The notes under the pieces: generated by a model
What the model saw: the letters and a program-made list of their open reading frames with translations, nothing else
Databases searched by the model: none
What the model was told of the DNA's origin: nothing
Assembly: GCA_016840945.1 (NCBI GenBank)
Contig: JAEORJ010000245.1
Span: forward strand, 1-26,136
Length of the DNA stretch: 26,136 nt
Origin: Candidatus Gerdarchaeota archaeon
GTDB taxonomy: Archaea; Asgardarchaeota; Heimdallarchaeia; JABLTI01
Reading direction: 5' to 3'
Part shown: positions 7,519-23,836 of the stretch, piece by piece
Position numbering within the stretch: position 1 is the stretch's first letter
Layout of the letters: every line of letters starts with the position of its first letter
Made by a program: the position numbers and the translations under genes

Positions 7519-8481
7519 TTGCAAATTCAAGATCATGTCGTTGAATTAGAAACTCAAAAAATCCTTATAGCGGGATTAGATAATGCTGGCAAGAGTTCAA
7601 TTCAAGATATAATGCAATTTATATCAATAGAAGCTGCAAAACGAAGAATTCCAAGTGAGGAAATTGAATTATTTCAGAAAAAATTTTTGAAAAAAAACTA
7701 CTCATTCTTCATACCCCCTGGGCAGGAAGAATTAAGATTATCTGAATTGCATGGGTCAATGAAAAATGAATACTTTGAAAACGTATCAACTCTTATATTT
7801 GTAATTGATAGCTCACAAAAAAATCGCTTTTCGGAAGCTCAAGAAGAACTACAGCGATGCATTGAAAATATATTAGAATTTTCACCTATGTGTTCAAATT
7901 TCATTATTTATGCTCATAAGCAAGATCTTCAAGAAGCTGTTGATGCTTTGACAATTTTCGATTGTATACTATTCCCATTAAAGAATTTGTTTCCCAGTGT
8001 AATAACTAAGTTCAAGCTTTTTGAAACCACTATTGTTAATCCAGAAACTGTTTTTGAACCATTTGTTAAAGCGATAGCAAAACATGTAGGAACAATAAAA
8101 ATAGATTTCAATAGCATTGCAGCAGACATACGCGAGCAAGTAAAAGCAAAAATTGTTTTAATAACAGATCCCAATGGCTTGCTTGTTGGTGAATCATTCA
8201 CAGGTGAAGAGGATTCAATTATTTATGCAGCATATGTAGCAAAGATTTTCTCTGCCACAGAGGATTTTCAAGGTGAATTAGAAGCTGGTGGAGTGGAAAC
8301 TATTATTCTAGAAGAAGGAAGAAAGAATCAATATAGTGTCATTTCTAGGATTAATTGTACAAAAGATGATTATTTAGCTTTATTCATTGGAAATCCGAAG
8401 GTAAATTTAGGCATGACTAGATTGGTCAACCAGAAAGGACTAGAAAAACTAAGAGAGGCTTATAGGAATTATCAGAATTAA
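7519..8481 (+). CDS. Rag/Gtr-like small GTPase fused to a C-terminal roadblock domain
   Basis: This 320-residue protein has two domains. Residues 14-190 form a Ras-superfamily GTPase: P-loop GLDNAGKSS (19-27), a G3-like PPGQEE (66-71) and G4 HKQD (133-136). Three features match eukaryotic RagA/RagC rather than Arf or Rab: the HK-x-D form of G4, the run NVSTLIFVIDSS, and the spacing C-x-E-x-IL-x2-SP before the G4 motif. The G3 aspartate that normally contacts magnesium is isoleucine (I65). Residues 200-318 form a roadblock/LC7 domain (TDPNGLLVGES, then a central helix, then a strand ending in LALFIGNP-x-VNLGM). Rag proteins have the same GTPase-roadblock order. The start is TTG at 7519; an in-frame stop at 7513-7515 excludes anything longer. 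MglA-type GTPases are the main alternative. The fold is strong; Rag kinship is inferred from motifs. Confidence 0.82.
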   Translation: MQIQDHVVELETQKILIAGLDNAGKSSIQDIMQFISIEAAKRRIPSEEIELFQKKFLKKNYSFFIPPGQEELRLSELHGSMKNEYFENVSTLIFVIDSSQKNRFSEAQEELQRCIENILEFSPMCSNFIIYAHKQDLQEAVDALTIFDCILFPLKNLFPSVITKFKLFETTIVNPETVFEPFVKAIAKHVGTIKIDFNSIAADIREQVKAKIVLITDPNGLLVGESFTGEEDSIIYAAYVAKIFSATEDFQGELEAGGVETIILEEGRKNQYSVISRINCTKDDYLALFIGNPKVNLGMTRLVNQKGLEKLREAYRNYQN

Positions 8482-8514
8482 TTGAATCCATCAAACAAAA
8501 AAAGGGCAAAAAAA

Positions 8515-9594
8515 ATGACAGATAATACAGAATTGAATTTATTGTTAATTGAATTTGATTCTATTAAGGGGCCAATAATTAGAAAAAAATCACCAGATGA
8601 TTTTGAATTACCTGCTAATTATAATGACCATAGTTTATTAATGTGGGTAATTCGTTCGACAGAATTTTCTGTCCGAAAAATTAAACAACACACTGCTTAT
8701 GCAAAAATTATTTCATTGAAAGATCCCAACTTTATGAGAAAAAAAAGGCAATTTGGTTTAGCTTTAATCACACCCACAACAATAGAATTAGAAAAAGCTG
8801 AATCTCTAATTAATAAAATTATATCCAAATGTCAAAAAGATTGTGAAAATAAACCATATTTTAAGATGTTATTAGGATTAATTCAAATAATTGATAATTT
8901 TCCAAAAATGATAAATAATAACGGTAATAATGACGCAACACCACAAATAATTCAACAGCAAGATATTAGTGAAGGCAAAATTGACGATTTACGCCATTTT
9001 ATTAAAAATCCATCTAATAATCAATTCATATTAATTAGTAACCGACTGAATGTTTTCAACAAACTAATTTTTAACAATAAAAAAGATAATTTGAAAGTTA
9101 TTGTCAGTCATGCTAAAAAGATAGATAAAGTGAAGGAAACAATTGGAACAAAAATAGAATTTGGAATAGATAGCTATGAAATAATTGCTGATGTTAAGAA
9201 TGAAGTTATTTCAGATATTAAATTAGGCTTGGAATTACTTCTACGAATATTAGATAGCACCTCATTAACAATGGATTTCAACAAAAGAATATTAGTTGCA
9301 GCTGAATTTTTAGATCGATTATTGACTGAAAATGTAGATATAGAGTATTATCTACCTTTTCTGCAATACCTTATATCAATGGAGCAATATAGTGTTTCCG
9401 AATTTAAAACTGAAGATTATGAAACCCATCTTTCAGATTTAATGGATACACATGGGGAATGGATTCAGTGTCTTAAAGGGAAAGAACTTGATGGAAAACC
9501 ATTAAAATCTTTTTTCGAAATTACTGATATCAAAAGAGAAGGATTAGAGCTTTTAATAGATCTATTATTTGTAAAATTGATTGCAATATTTTAA
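8515..9594 (+). CDS. longin-domain protein resembling NPRL2, candidate partner of the adjacent GTPase
   Basis: This is a 359-residue protein with no database-style name I can give. Its N-terminus (residues 8-130) reads LLLIEFDSIKGPIIRKKSPD and then DF, which parallels the first longin strands of eukaryotic NPRL2 (EF-x4-GP-x-I-x4-P-x-DF). It is followed by a RQFGLALITP strand where NPRL2 has its FNLGFV strand, and then a long helix. A low-complexity asparagine-rich linker (about 140-160) leads to an alpha/beta segment and a helical C-terminal half (about 240-359). There are no membrane segments or cysteine clusters. The ATG at 8515 is preferred over an in-frame TTG at 8482 because it has AAAGGG about eight bases upstream. 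The preceding GTPase gene ends at 8481, so the two are probably one transcript. NPRL2-like function is inference from the short N-terminal match plus the neighbour. Confidence 0.65.
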   Translation: MTDNTELNLLLIEFDSIKGPIIRKKSPDDFELPANYNDHSLLMWVIRSTEFSVRKIKQHTAYAKIISLKDPNFMRKKRQFGLALITPTTIELEKAESLINKIISKCQKDCENKPYFKMLLGLIQIIDNFPKMINNNGNNDATPQIIQQQDISEGKIDDLRHFIKNPSNNQFILISNRLNVFNKLIFNNKKDNLKVIVSHAKKIDKVKETIGTKIEFGIDSYEIIADVKNEVISDIKLGLELLLRILDSTSLTMDFNKRILVAAEFLDRLLTENVDIEYYLPFLQYLISMEQYSVSEFKTEDYETHLSDLMDTHGEWIQCLKGKELDGKPLKSFFEITDIKREGLELLIDLLFVKLIAIF

Positions 9595-9636: not shown

Positions 9637-10461
9637 ATGGCTAATGATGAATTTGAAGACGATATTACTGCTGATTCATGGTTTATCCCTGGAAAACCAG
9701 CCATATTAATTGAAGAAAAAAATTTTGGTAAAATCTTGATTATAGCAGATTTACATATTGGTTTTGTATATGGCCAAAATAAAAAAGGGATTATTGTGCC
9801 AACAAAAATGTTACCTGAAGAAGAATTGTTAGATTTAGTTTTACAGTATAAACCAAGAAGAGTAATTGTTTTAGGAGATTTTAAAGATGAAATTTATGGT
9901 ACAGCAAACCCTCTACCTGGAAGAATTTGGGAATTCTTCAAGCGTATCAAGAAATACACACGATTAACCATTATAAAAGGAAATCATGATGGGAAATTAG
10001 AGGAAGTAATGCAAGAAGGTATTGAAATAGTACCTACAACAGGCTTAAAATTAGAAGAAAGAAAAACTGGGAAATCAATAGGTTTATGGCATGGACATGC
10101 AAATCCAGCTTTAGATGTAATTGATGCAGACATAACCATCATGGGACATGCTCATCCTGCATACAAATTTAGAGATGAATTAGGTGTAAAAATAACTGAA
10201 AAAGTATGGGTAAAGGCAAAATGGCTAAGCACTTCAAATCGTAATGAGAGAGTTCATATTATCCTTCCAGCATTTAATCAGTTTATTGAAGGATATTCTG
10301 TTGATGAAAATATCTTCAAAGCTACTGTATTGATGAGAGAAGGTATTGATTTTGATAACGCTGAAGTATTTACTTTAGATGGAATTTTGATTGGCACGAT
10401 AAAAGATTTACAGGAACAAAGAGCTAAATTAGAAGAGAAGAAAAAGAAGAGAAGAAAATAA
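9637..10461 (+). CDS. metallophosphoesterase of the archaeal ICC-like group (COG1407 type)
   Basis: This 274-residue calcineurin-like phosphoesterase has every metal-binding motif in order: D-x-H in IIADLHIG (near residue 35), GDFKDE (near 87), GNHDG (near 114), GLWHGH (near 152) and the final GHAHP (near 169). This pattern is typical of a two-metal phosphoesterase, and the overall form matches the archaeal COG1407 family, whose substrate is not settled. The C-terminus is a lysine-rich tail (EEKKKKRRK) that may contact nucleic acid. The gene lies 42 bases after the longin protein on the same strand, so it may be the third gene of that unit, but no functional link is evident. Its last 33 bases overlap the 3' end of the converging dehydrogenase gene. 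Confidence 0.85.
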   Translation: MANDEFEDDITADSWFIPGKPAILIEEKNFGKILIIADLHIGFVYGQNKKGIIVPTKMLPEEELLDLVLQYKPRRVIVLGDFKDEIYGTANPLPGRIWEFFKRIKKYTRLTIIKGNHDGKLEEVMQEGIEIVPTTGLKLEERKTGKSIGLWHGHANPALDVIDADITIMGHAHPAYKFRDELGVKITEKVWVKAKWLSTSNRNERVHIILPAFNQFIEGYSVDENIFKATVLMREGIDFDNAEVFTLDGILIGTIKDLQEQRAKLEEKKKKRRK

Positions 10462-21325: not shown

Positions 21326-21478
21326 TATGTCTTAAGAAGAAAATTAAAAAATGATATATTTTCTCATTTAATATAAGTGTATCAGATTGTTCTAATCTTT
21401 CTGATTTTATTAAAAGTTATTAAGCAAGATAAGAGTAATTGTGATATTAAAGTAACTATAAACCATGGGGATAATATT

Positions 21479-23836
21479 ATGAGTGAAAAACCGACAACAA
21501 CGCCATTTCTTGATAAGATTGGCTTAAGTGAAGAAGAACAGAAAGTGTATCTTTCGCTTCTAGCTCTCGGCCCCCTTACAGCTGGTGAAATTTCTAAATA
21601 TAGTGGTGTAAAACCAATTTCTAAAGTCCGTCAAGTTTTAGCTAAATTGATGGAAAGAAATTATGCATATAATATTGAAGGATTAGTCGATAAAGTAATT
21701 GGCCTTTACCCATTCAAAGAAATCGCTGCTGAGGCTGAGAATGATGCAAAGAAAATTGAGCAGATTGTAGCTGAAATTAAGCAATTTGTCACTGATCAAA
21801 TAGCTCATTTCAATCAAGTTTTGAAAGAAACAGAAGAACATGTTCGAGCTGAAAAGAGCAAAGCAACGACTGCAATTACAACAAATAGTGAACAAAGCCG
21901 TAACACAATAAACAACAAAATAACTGAATCGAAGAAAAATGTAACAGCTACAGCAGATTCTTCAAAGAAAAATGTAAAAACAAGTGCTGACACTTTTCTA
22001 AAAAATCAAACAGATACATCAAATGCTTTTGAAGTAGGTGTAAATGAAAATTTCACACAATTTTCAACTGAATTAAAAGCTAACACTGAAACTGCTTTGA
22101 AGAATTTAAGCGCTGGAATAAAAAGCAAGAACGATGAATTCTTAGCGGAAGGAACAACAGCATTAGACACTGCTGATGTGGAAATTAAAGCAAAAGCAGA
22201 TAGATTAGCTGTTACAATTAAAGAAGATGCTCAAAGCGATTTAGAGGGAACTCGTGATCATGTTCTAGTAGGTCTTGACAATTTCGTCAATGAATCTGAA
22301 GGTAATGTGAAATCATTAAATGAAAGCTTAGTATCTGCAACTAATGAACAAGCTTCATTAATCAAAGACACTACTGAAGAAGCTAAAAAGAATAGAATTG
22401 ATCTAAATAACCAATTCAAAACAGGATTAGATACAAGTTTTGAAAAAGTAAAAACAGATTTTGCAGATGATTTAGTACAATTCCAAAATAAATTCAATGG
22501 TCAATTATCAGCTGTAGCTGATAAATTCAAAAAACAGATTGATGACCTAACACAAGCAACTGCTCAAGATATAAGCTTATTATGTGAAGAAGCTAATGCT
22601 TCAATAAACGATCTTATTGAGAAACATAATGGTGAAATCGCAGCAAATGTTGATCTTGATAACAAAACAGTTGAAGATGGCACTAATGCAATGTTGGCTA
22701 AAGTTAAGAAGCAAAATACAGATGCATTAAAAACAATTAACGCTTCTGTTGAAACACATGTTTCCAGTTTAACGCTTCTTAAAGCAAATTACAGTGGAGA
22801 TATTAATACCAAAGTTAATGAAGCAATCGCTTCTCTACATGAATCAACTGACGCATCTGTTGAGGAAGCTAAAACAGAATATGAAGCTACTAAAACATCA
22901 ATTACTGGTCAGTTAGAAACTTTAACTACAGGCAATTCAAAAACAGCAAACTCTACAGCAATGAAGCAATCAGATGAAATCAAAGGAAAAACAGATTCCT
23001 TAGTTACAAAATCAAAAGAATCACTTTCTCAAGCAAGAACTGCTTTTGCTACTGAAACCAAGAATAACAAAGAGAAAATTGCCACTGCTGCAACAAAAAG
23101 CATTGATACTATGAGTGATACTTCAAATACAACTTTAGGTGAAGTTTCTGAAAACGCTAAAACAGCTATACGAAGCAATGAAGAAACATCTGTTAAAAGC
23201 GTAAGCACAATAGCTGATGTTGTTGAAACCTCAGTTCGAAAAGAAATTGAAACTGTTAAAGGCGGTTTTGATTCCTACTACAAACAATTCGAAAGAGGGG
23301 CATTAAAGATTACCAGGTTAATGCTTGATTTCAAGAATCAACATGAAAGTCTTCTAAATACTGTTATTGTCTATCCAAGACCGCTAATAGAAACTGCTCT
23401 ATTATATAGCAAAGATGCCGTATTTGATAGATTAGAGGATATGTTAACTGAACGAATTAAATCCAATGTTACTATGGTTATTCCTGATCCAAAAGATATC
23501 CCAACTAAAACACTAGCCAAAGTAAAAGCTCAAGCAAAAATAACCGTTATCTCAAAAATAGATGAAATCAGTAATAAGAATATTATTGATCAAATGAAAG
23601 CAGATGATGCTTTAGGTCGAATAAAGATTCGAAAAATCGGTATGCAAGATATGATGGGCTTAACTGAATATATTGCTTTTGACCGCGATGGTGGTGAAGA
23701 AATGCTTATAGCTTTTAAGGATGAAACCGAAAAAGATTGGGTAGGCGTTCTTTCAACCTCTGATGGATTTAAGAATGTAGTAATTGGTGAAATTTTAGGC
23801 AGACAAGCATTATCAATTTCTCGCGAACTAAAGTAA
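21479..23836 (+). CDS. TrmB-type HTH protein with a ~500-residue helical insert
   Basis: Residues 1-95 of this 785-residue protein are a TrmB winged helix (LDKIGLSEEEQKVYLSLLAL, then AGEISKYSGVKPISKVRQVL). Residues 604-785 resemble the C-terminal effector region of TrmB regulators, a PLD-like fold (VTMVIPDPKDIP, KITVISKIDE, GEEMLIAFKDE, WVGVLSTSDGF). Between them lie about 500 residues of threonine-, serine-, lysine- and asparagine-rich, nearly proline-free amphipathic helix with no recognised domain. Ordinary TrmB proteins are about 250-350 residues with a short linker. The helix could separate DNA-binding and sensing ends by tens of nanometres, oligomerise, or act structurally. ATG 21479 with GGGGAT about eight bases upstream is preferred over an in-frame GTG at 21377. 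A hairpin terminator follows. The domain ends are secure; the role is unknown. Confidence 0.8.
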   Translation: MSEKPTTTPFLDKIGLSEEEQKVYLSLLALGPLTAGEISKYSGVKPISKVRQVLAKLMERNYAYNIEGLVDKVIGLYPFKEIAAEAENDAKKIEQIVAEIKQFVTDQIAHFNQVLKETEEHVRAEKSKATTAITTNSEQSRNTINNKITESKKNVTATADSSKKNVKTSADTFLKNQTDTSNAFEVGVNENFTQFSTELKANTETALKNLSAGIKSKNDEFLAEGTTALDTADVEIKAKADRLAVTIKEDAQSDLEGTRDHVLVGLDNFVNESEGNVKSLNESLVSATNEQASLIKDTTEEAKKNRIDLNNQFKTGLDTSFEKVKTDFADDLVQFQNKFNGQLSAVADKFKKQIDDLTQATAQDISLLCEEANASINDLIEKHNGEIAANVDLDNKTVEDGTNAMLAKVKKQNTDALKTINASVETHVSSLTLLKANYSGDINTKVNEAIASLHESTDASVEEAKTEYEATKTSITGQLETLTTGNSKTANSTAMKQSDEIKGKTDSLVTKSKESLSQARTAFATETKNNKEKIATAATKSIDTMSDTSNTTLGEVSENAKTAIRSNEETSVKSVSTIADVVETSVRKEIETVKGGFDSYYKQFERGALKITRLMLDFKNQHESLLNTVIVYPRPLIETALLYSKDAVFDRLEDMLTERIKSNVTMVIPDPKDIPTKTLAKVKAQAKITVISKIDEISNKNIIDQMKADDALGRIKIRKIGMQDMMGLTEYIAFDRDGGEEMLIAFKDETEKDWVGVLSTSDGFKNVVIGEILGRQALSISRELK

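Follow-up and report, generated by a model that had tools for sequence, protein, structure and literature searches.

Do a Rag-type GTPase and the longin protein encoded directly downstream of it form a dedicated pair of enzyme and regulator in Asgard archaea? The question is raised by two neighbouring genes, P1 and P2, on contig JAEORJ010000245.1 of Candidatus Gerdarchaeota archaeon (assembly GCA_016840945.1; the whole stretch analysed, 26,136 nucleotides, is called the window). P1 encodes a Rag/Arf-like GTPase with a C-terminal roadblock domain and P2 an NPRL2-like longin protein. Asgard genomes carry dozens of small GTPases and longins, and the assignment of regulators to GTPases is a general question in this group. 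Passages of Tran et al. 2024 (PMC10933270) note that gene layout is of little help in MK-D1, where roadblock, longin or TRAPPC3 genes do not generally share operons with the GTPase genes; they also describe fusions of Asgard GTPases with longin or roadblock domains, and a switch II insert in the GTPase-roadblock proteins. A figure legend of PMC9834061 lists both the NPRL2-like longin domain and the Gtr1/RagA GTPase among its Asgard categories. In Asgards, proteins of both classes are already known, and the parts of the pair are of known kinds. A gene pairing of the P1-P2 type was not found in the literature searched, most subscription papers being outside its reach.

The pair was found in two distant lineages, and it assigns to one GTPase a probable regulator and a candidate catalytic residue. 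P1 and P2 very probably act together (estimated probability about 0.85). That P2 is the GTPase-activating protein (GAP) of P1 and works through an arginine of its longin hairpin is, judging from sequence and predicted structure, an even bet.

Conservation of the gene pair

Both P1 and P2 are real genes, since P2 has a family of 46 members at E<=1 (itself included) and P1 has orthologs at 58-68% identity. They lie on the plus strand, divergent from rpoB, and are separated by an intergenic gap of 33 bases (8482-8514). The two genes, this spacing and the two motifs on which the original prediction was built are all present in the sequence. In most aligned homologs the Met equivalent to the P2 ATG is the start. 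Named P2 homologs are labelled Heimdallarchaeota, Asgard group, Thorarchaeota or Gerdarchaeota; a few carry unexpected names (Bathyarchaeia, Zixibacteria).

In the lineage of the window (lineage A), P2 was detected in 9 of the 227 genomes of the phylum. The same nine genomes possess the GTPase ortholog of 58-68% identity, and the coordinates of the two genes are side by side in all nine. The nine P2 loci of named genomes (largely the same set, titled Heimdallarchaeota or Asgard group) have the GTPase directly 5' of P2 in eight cases, while in the ninth the contig stops within P2. In lineage A conservation extends over all genes between rpoA1/rpoB and EF1A, and therefore adjacency in this lineage alone is no evidence of a functional link. 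P1 and P2 could be neighbours by history, kept together by synteny in lineage A, arranged in an unrelated manner in lineage B and serving separate processes.

The second lineage bears on this explanation. Beyond lineage A, the window GTPase had its strongest matches in three small genomes, G169 (7.2e-19), G171 (1.9e-16) and G163 (4.7e-16), and in each of them a longin gene with an NPRL2-like start lies immediately 3' of the matching GTPase. The start of one such longin (locus L031) is AEFHPVEGPIFSVIIP, compared with SEFHPTLGPKITYQVP in NPRL2. A search with the L031 longin uncovered relatives in G163, G171 and G172, each adjoining its GTPase; its two other hits, in G039 and G020 (E 0.003-0.009), are probably fortuitous. 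When the L031 GTPase was used as a query, the P2-adjacent GTPase was the top match in 9/9 lineage-A genomes, with the next paralog many orders of magnitude weaker.

RpoB of the four lineage-B pair genomes is 42-43% identical to that of the window over the main match, and these four are 51-82% identical among themselves. By comparison, RpoB of four lineage-A genomes shares 90-91% identity with that of the window, and for seven further members of the phylum the value is 58-66%; one genome had no match. The pair genes overlap by 4-26 bases in the four lineage-B genomes (first start codon taken). Comparison of 19 window genes with the 59 open reading frames (ORFs) around the four pairs at E<=0.01 matched the GTPase in three of four and the P2 start with one longin (E 0.004). 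The other matches were EF1A, which hit a different GTPase gene of the translation type, and two ATP-binding cassette (ABC) hits that resemble chance. As so few of the 19 genes matched, the surroundings in lineage B differ from those in the window.

Lineage B comprises eight genomes with at least 54% RpoB identity to G169 (G163, G165 and G167-G172; the next genome is at 45%). A GTPase of the paired type and the longin are both found in four of them (G163, G169, G171, G172). Because the two parts are present or absent together across all eight genomes, these data favour a unit whose GTPase and longin would have been gained or lost jointly. The claim that the pair is conserved thus holds for lineage A (9/9) and reaches the distant lineage B, where it is true of only half the genomes.

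A wider adjacency survey covered 126 GTPase ORFs in 113 loci. Its loci were gathered around the GTPase of the window and three from lineage B rather than around all Asgard GTPases, and some loci overlap, so that the same gene appears twice. In 13 rows a same-strand neighbour matched a loose longin N-terminus pattern: seven of these represent the four lineage-B pairs, two a fusion in G083 (L110), and four look spurious. The base rate of the pattern is 20 of 696 non-GTPase ORFs, pair longins included. Given lineage B, with its other surroundings, overlapping genes, joint presence and absence and seven of the 13 survey rows, synteny is less likely to be the whole explanation, and neighbourhood by history is regarded as quite unlikely.

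Predicted fold and conserved arginines of P2

The predicted N-terminal domain of P2 is a longin, for which structure comparison ranked NPRL2/Npr2 of GATOR1/SEA first. This agrees with the earlier proposal that the second protein is an NPRL2-like longin, as does the N-terminus EFDSIKGPIIRKKSPDDF, which fits the pattern EF-x4-GP-x-I-x4-P-x-DF. Residues 59-70 and 73-86 form the strands of a hairpin in the P2 model. In this model R75 sits in the beta4-beta5 hairpin, the site of the arginine finger in longin GAPs. R75 and R78 are both present in 36/36 aligned rows, and in all 44 family members covering the region (of 46). The strict block is kept in 41 of 46; P0006, P0043 and P0044 differ elsewhere in it while retaining both arginines, and the fragments P0045 and P0046 stop short of it. 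The alignment contains 36 of the 46 members (P0006, P0008, P0011, P0025, P0026, P0030 and P0043-P0046 were omitted as redundant or fragmentary).

P2 could instead be a guanine nucleotide exchange factor (GEF) or an effector platform for P1, the role that Mon1-Ccz1 and TRAPP, also longin pairs, have towards Rabs, with a conserved basic hairpin that binds the membrane or the GTPase surface instead of the active site. Passages of PMC8534245 and PMC10933270 present longins as frequent in GEFs, MON1A-CCZ1 chains are also among the structural matches of P2, and the hairpin is Lys/Arg-rich. However, the top matches are to NPRL2/Npr2, a GAP subunit, and R75/R78 are placed in the very hairpin that carries the finger of longin GAPs, which makes a GEF or platform role rather unlikely. 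In another scenario the longin of P2, perhaps with a second longin-like domain, would form a Ragulator-like, non-catalytic scaffold with the P1 roadblock dimer. Such a structural role leaves the conserved R75/R78 block unexplained and is deemed improbable.

Sequence comparisons of P2 beyond its own family gave little. No Pfam match was found for P2, and those among 36 homologs were weak and scattered. Searches of the PDB yielded no hit with the P2 sequence and none that was credible with the P2 profile; the lineage-B longin profile found no NPRL2 among PDB sequences and two chance hits. No further families appeared among the 43 hits of a P2 profile search, in which the candidates with the most shared words were scored. 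Profile comparison of P2 with the lineage-B longins gave P 0.0015 (HHsuite probability 16.5%), and that of the lineage-B longins with NPRL2 gave P 0.00046 (33%), with YSR two columns off register. A joint longin profile reached many other longins at weak scores; hits at E<=0.1 came from 57 of the 227 genomes, 13 of which are pair genomes.

Domains and relatives of P1

The Rag-type features read in P1 at the outset, HKQD and C-x-E-x-IL-x2-SP, were both found, the latter as CIENILEFSP. Further Rag-like traits are a long switch II and an ETTI block at G5 (T[ST]I type). P1 matches the Pfam families Arf (61.9 bits) and Gtr1_RagA (54.2 bits; cut-off 22), and each family is matched in 10/10 members of the P1 family. 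Among PDB sequences P1 matches best the crystal structure 8yl2, titled as a RagA-like GTPase of Lokiarchaeota, LokiRagO (residues 12-294 of P1), and Gtr1 of 8fw5 aligns to residues 13-313. The predicted C-terminal roadblock domain finds support in the family, where Robl_LC7 matches at E<=0.01 in nine of ten members, the window's P1 among them (best 1.2e-4), and in the alignment to 8yl2, which runs to residue 294; in Pfam the window's P1 itself scores below the cut-off of 23 (19.4 bits, E 8.6e-4).

The P1-family profile scored Arf1 at 53.4 bits, RagA at 42.8 and MglA at 3.9, the last of eight references. MglA is therefore ruled out as the nearest relative of P1, settling one half of the earlier doubt over MglA or Arf kinship; the other half stands in part, for Arf scores slightly above Rag in the G domain. 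As a typical Arf P1 does not qualify despite its strong Arf match, since Arfs have a short switch II and no roadblock domain, and in P1 a roadblock domain is present and switch II is longer. One tree joins MglA with L033, which was flagged as a long-branch case. A second GTPase tree was made without Rab1 and Sar1, with the L032, L033 and L042 rows swapped for ORFs of longer loci and with six lineage-A GTPases.

The G3 motif, which the original prediction does not mention, reads I/V-PPGQE in 11/11 aligned P1-family rows (L003 and L025 have identical sequences), so that the Asp of DxxG is replaced and the Gln kept. Lineage-B GTPases likewise have PGQ preceded by a hydrophobic residue. From its sequence, the most fitting name for P1 is Rag/Arf-like GTPase-roadblock protein of the PGQ type.

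Lineage-B genomes also contain short GTPases (275-292 residues) of the PGQ/PGH type that have no longin neighbour (L085, L086, L087, L089, L090). Some of the short PGQ/PGH GTPases of this lineage overlap genes which by eye resemble membrane proteins.

Proposed mechanism and points against it

For the proposed dedicated pair of P1 and P2, the analysis shows the domains (for P2, from the predicted structure), the conservation of the arginines, where these fall in the predicted fold, and adjacency in two lineages. Of the new evidence that the two are a functional unit, the adjacency in lineage B weighs most. P1 probably dimerises via its roadblock domain, and P2 would bind it through the NPRL2-type longin domain. 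P2 would then most likely be the GAP of P1: R75 (or R78) of its hairpin may enter the P1 active site as an arginine finger, with Q69 of P1 retained. Physical binding, GAP activity and its direction, the dimeric form and any signal sensed are the inferred parts of this model.

Several results weigh against the proposed pair and its mechanism, some of them in favour of neighbourhood by history. Four of the eight lineage-B genomes (G165, G167, G168, G170) have neither pair gene: the best GTPase match there is 1.1e-4 and the longin profile found nothing at E<=1. Three of these four are nearer to G169 by RpoB than the other pair holders are. Gene loss, genomes that are incomplete or a misplaced contig may account for this pattern. 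In the window-GTPase search, an unpaired short relative in G172 (8.6e-14) came ahead of the paired GTPase (4.5e-12), and in G163 the two are nearly equal (paired 4.7e-16, unpaired 5.8e-16). In the tree, paired lineage-B GTPases cluster with unpaired short ones (support 82/94) and do not form one clade with those of lineage A. Because of these close or better scores and the tree grouping, independent pairing of related parts in the two lineages is possible.

The same holds for the assignment of function. P1 falls outside the eukaryotic RagA/RagC clade in trees, where deep branches are weakly supported, and in the absence of the DxxG Asp it may be doubtful whether it cycles like a Rag. The candidate Arg is aligned in L083 and L088, lies two columns off in L031 (MAFFT) and is absent in L084. 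Profile comparison of P2 with NPRL2 was not significant (P 0.43, HHsuite probability 0.1%), and the register that puts a P2 Arg at the place equivalent to NPRL2 R78 rests on this hhalign alignment. Since HHsuite probabilities are low in all three comparisons between P2, NPRL2 and lineage-B longins, together they count as weak evidence. The model of the P2 C-terminal half had no Foldseek match at E<=0.001, and NPRL2, in which TINI and C-terminal domains come after the longin, is absent among the VIA rows listed. In the 227 genomes all Pfam NPR2 matches were below the cut-off; the control, a single ring (E. coli), was also below it. Longins also serve as GEFs and scaffolds.

The idea of a Rag-GATOR/FLCN-type module thus survives in a looser form, with a Rag-type GTPase, an NPRL2-like longin and the pair in two lineages. 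A strict module of this kind does not agree with the P2 C-terminal half, for which comparison gave no NPRL2 match, with the lack of an NPR2 match above cut-off, with the place of P1 outside the Rag clade or with the patchiness in lineage B. It is unlikely, though worth stating, that a two-protein operon of a Rag-type GTPase and a longin GAP in two deep Asgard lineages represents a surviving simple form ancestral to the GATOR1, FLCN-FNIP and C9orf72-SMCR8 GAPs. If it did, the arginine finger of the longin hairpin would be older than eukaryotes. The age of longin-GAP control over Rag-like GTPases becomes a question open to a simple in vitro assay.

Features, neighbouring genes and other longins

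Table 1. Positions in the window of the pair genes, their domains and motifs, and the gene that follows them
Feature	Residues	Window position	Strand	Remark
P1, Rag/Arf-like GTPase with C-terminal roadblock domain	320	7519..8481	+	TTG start
P1 G1/P-loop, GLDNAGKSS	19-27	7573..7599	+	
P1 G3 motif, IPPGQE	65-70	7711..7728	+	Ile for Asp of DxxG, Gln kept
P1 G4 motif, HKQD	133-136	7915..7926	+	HKxD as in Rags
P1 roadblock region	about 200-320	8116..8478	+	Robl_LC7 match 213-265; alignments to 8yl2 and Gtr1 (8fw5_D)
P2, NPRL2-like longin protein	359	8515..9594	+	ATG at 8515, likely start
P2 longin domain	about 1-130	8515..8904	+	predicted structure
P2 beta4-beta5 hairpin, DPNFMRKKRQFG	70-81	8722..8757	+	R75 and R78, candidate arginine finger
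P2 C-terminal half	165-359	9007..9591	+	confidently modelled
Metallophosphoesterase gene		9637..10461	+	42 bases 3' of P2

The metallophosphoesterase gene follows P2 in the eight loci of lineage A that are long enough to include it (L001-L003, L005-L009), and had no match among the 59 ORFs surrounding the four lineage-B pairs. It is perhaps part of the same operon and lies outside the core pair. Its end overlaps by 33 bases (window 10429-10461) the end of a convergent ORF for a flavin adenine dinucleotide (FAD)-dependent oxidoreductase. A scan for promoters and terminators gave chance-level results only. Elsewhere in the window, an ORF of 819 residues (21377-23836) looks by eye TrmB-like at its start and coiled-coil-like over a very long middle part.

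Fifteen further longin ORFs of the phylum were read (L210-L226), of which eight have an ARG block near the hairpin and three are fused to a GTPase. The (W)ARG block lies near the place of the beta4-beta5 hairpin in L210, L212, L217, L218, L219, L221, L222 and L223 (for example EIPSEWARGKKEMALISI-like) and presumably resembles the finger region of FLCN. These longins may form a wider set of candidate longin GAPs. In G083 (L110:546-4002) a fusion of a longin and an Arf-like GTPase lies between two Rag-like GTPase genes on one strand, with gaps of at most 20 bases. Further along (L110:4582-5505), a response regulator has a C-terminal longin-like part containing DVRGGHRRFMLAVIAP, which is similar to the P2 hairpin, and L220 probably encodes a similar response regulator (judged from its first 130 residues). 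L072:328-1614 is a single-chain longin-GTPase with a P2-like start, TEWDSTMGTIIRKSFP, and adjoins a Rab-like gene.

Comparison with known systems

The bacterial polarity system MglA-MglB shares with the pair a PGQ GTPase lacking the DxxG Asp and a small regulatory partner. However, MglB is a roadblock protein whereas P2 is a longin, and MglA scores as low as 3.9 bits against the P1 profile. The longin/DENN GAPs FLCN-FNIP, C9orf72-SMCR8 and Avl9 have a longin with a catalytic or proposed arginine finger (beta4-beta5 in Avl9-type proteins), but there DENN domains follow the longin, and none was detected in P2.

The Asgard Rag-like GTPase-roadblock proteins (LokiRagO, 8yl2; the MK-D1 class, PMC10933270) share with P1 its domain order, long switch II and HKxD. 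In contrast to them, P1 has a hydrophobic residue for the DxxG Asp together with PGQ, and a longin gene as partner. The Asgard NPRL2-like longin domain of PMC9834061 (after asCOG) bears the same label as P2 and is likely of the same broad longin class; the figure legend counts such longins in a Lokiarchaeon and names no partner GTPase. On the eukaryotic side stands NPRL2/Npr2, the longin-domain GAP of RagA/Gtr1 in GATOR1/SEA. It resembles P2 in its N-terminal longin with an EF-x-x-x-x-GP start, in a conserved Arg that may hold the same place, close to where strand beta5 begins, and in a Rag-like GTPase-roadblock protein as partner, which for P2 is the probable one. P2 differs in having no NPR2 match above the cut-off, in its unmatched C-terminal half and in the position of its gene, which adjoins that of its GTPase.
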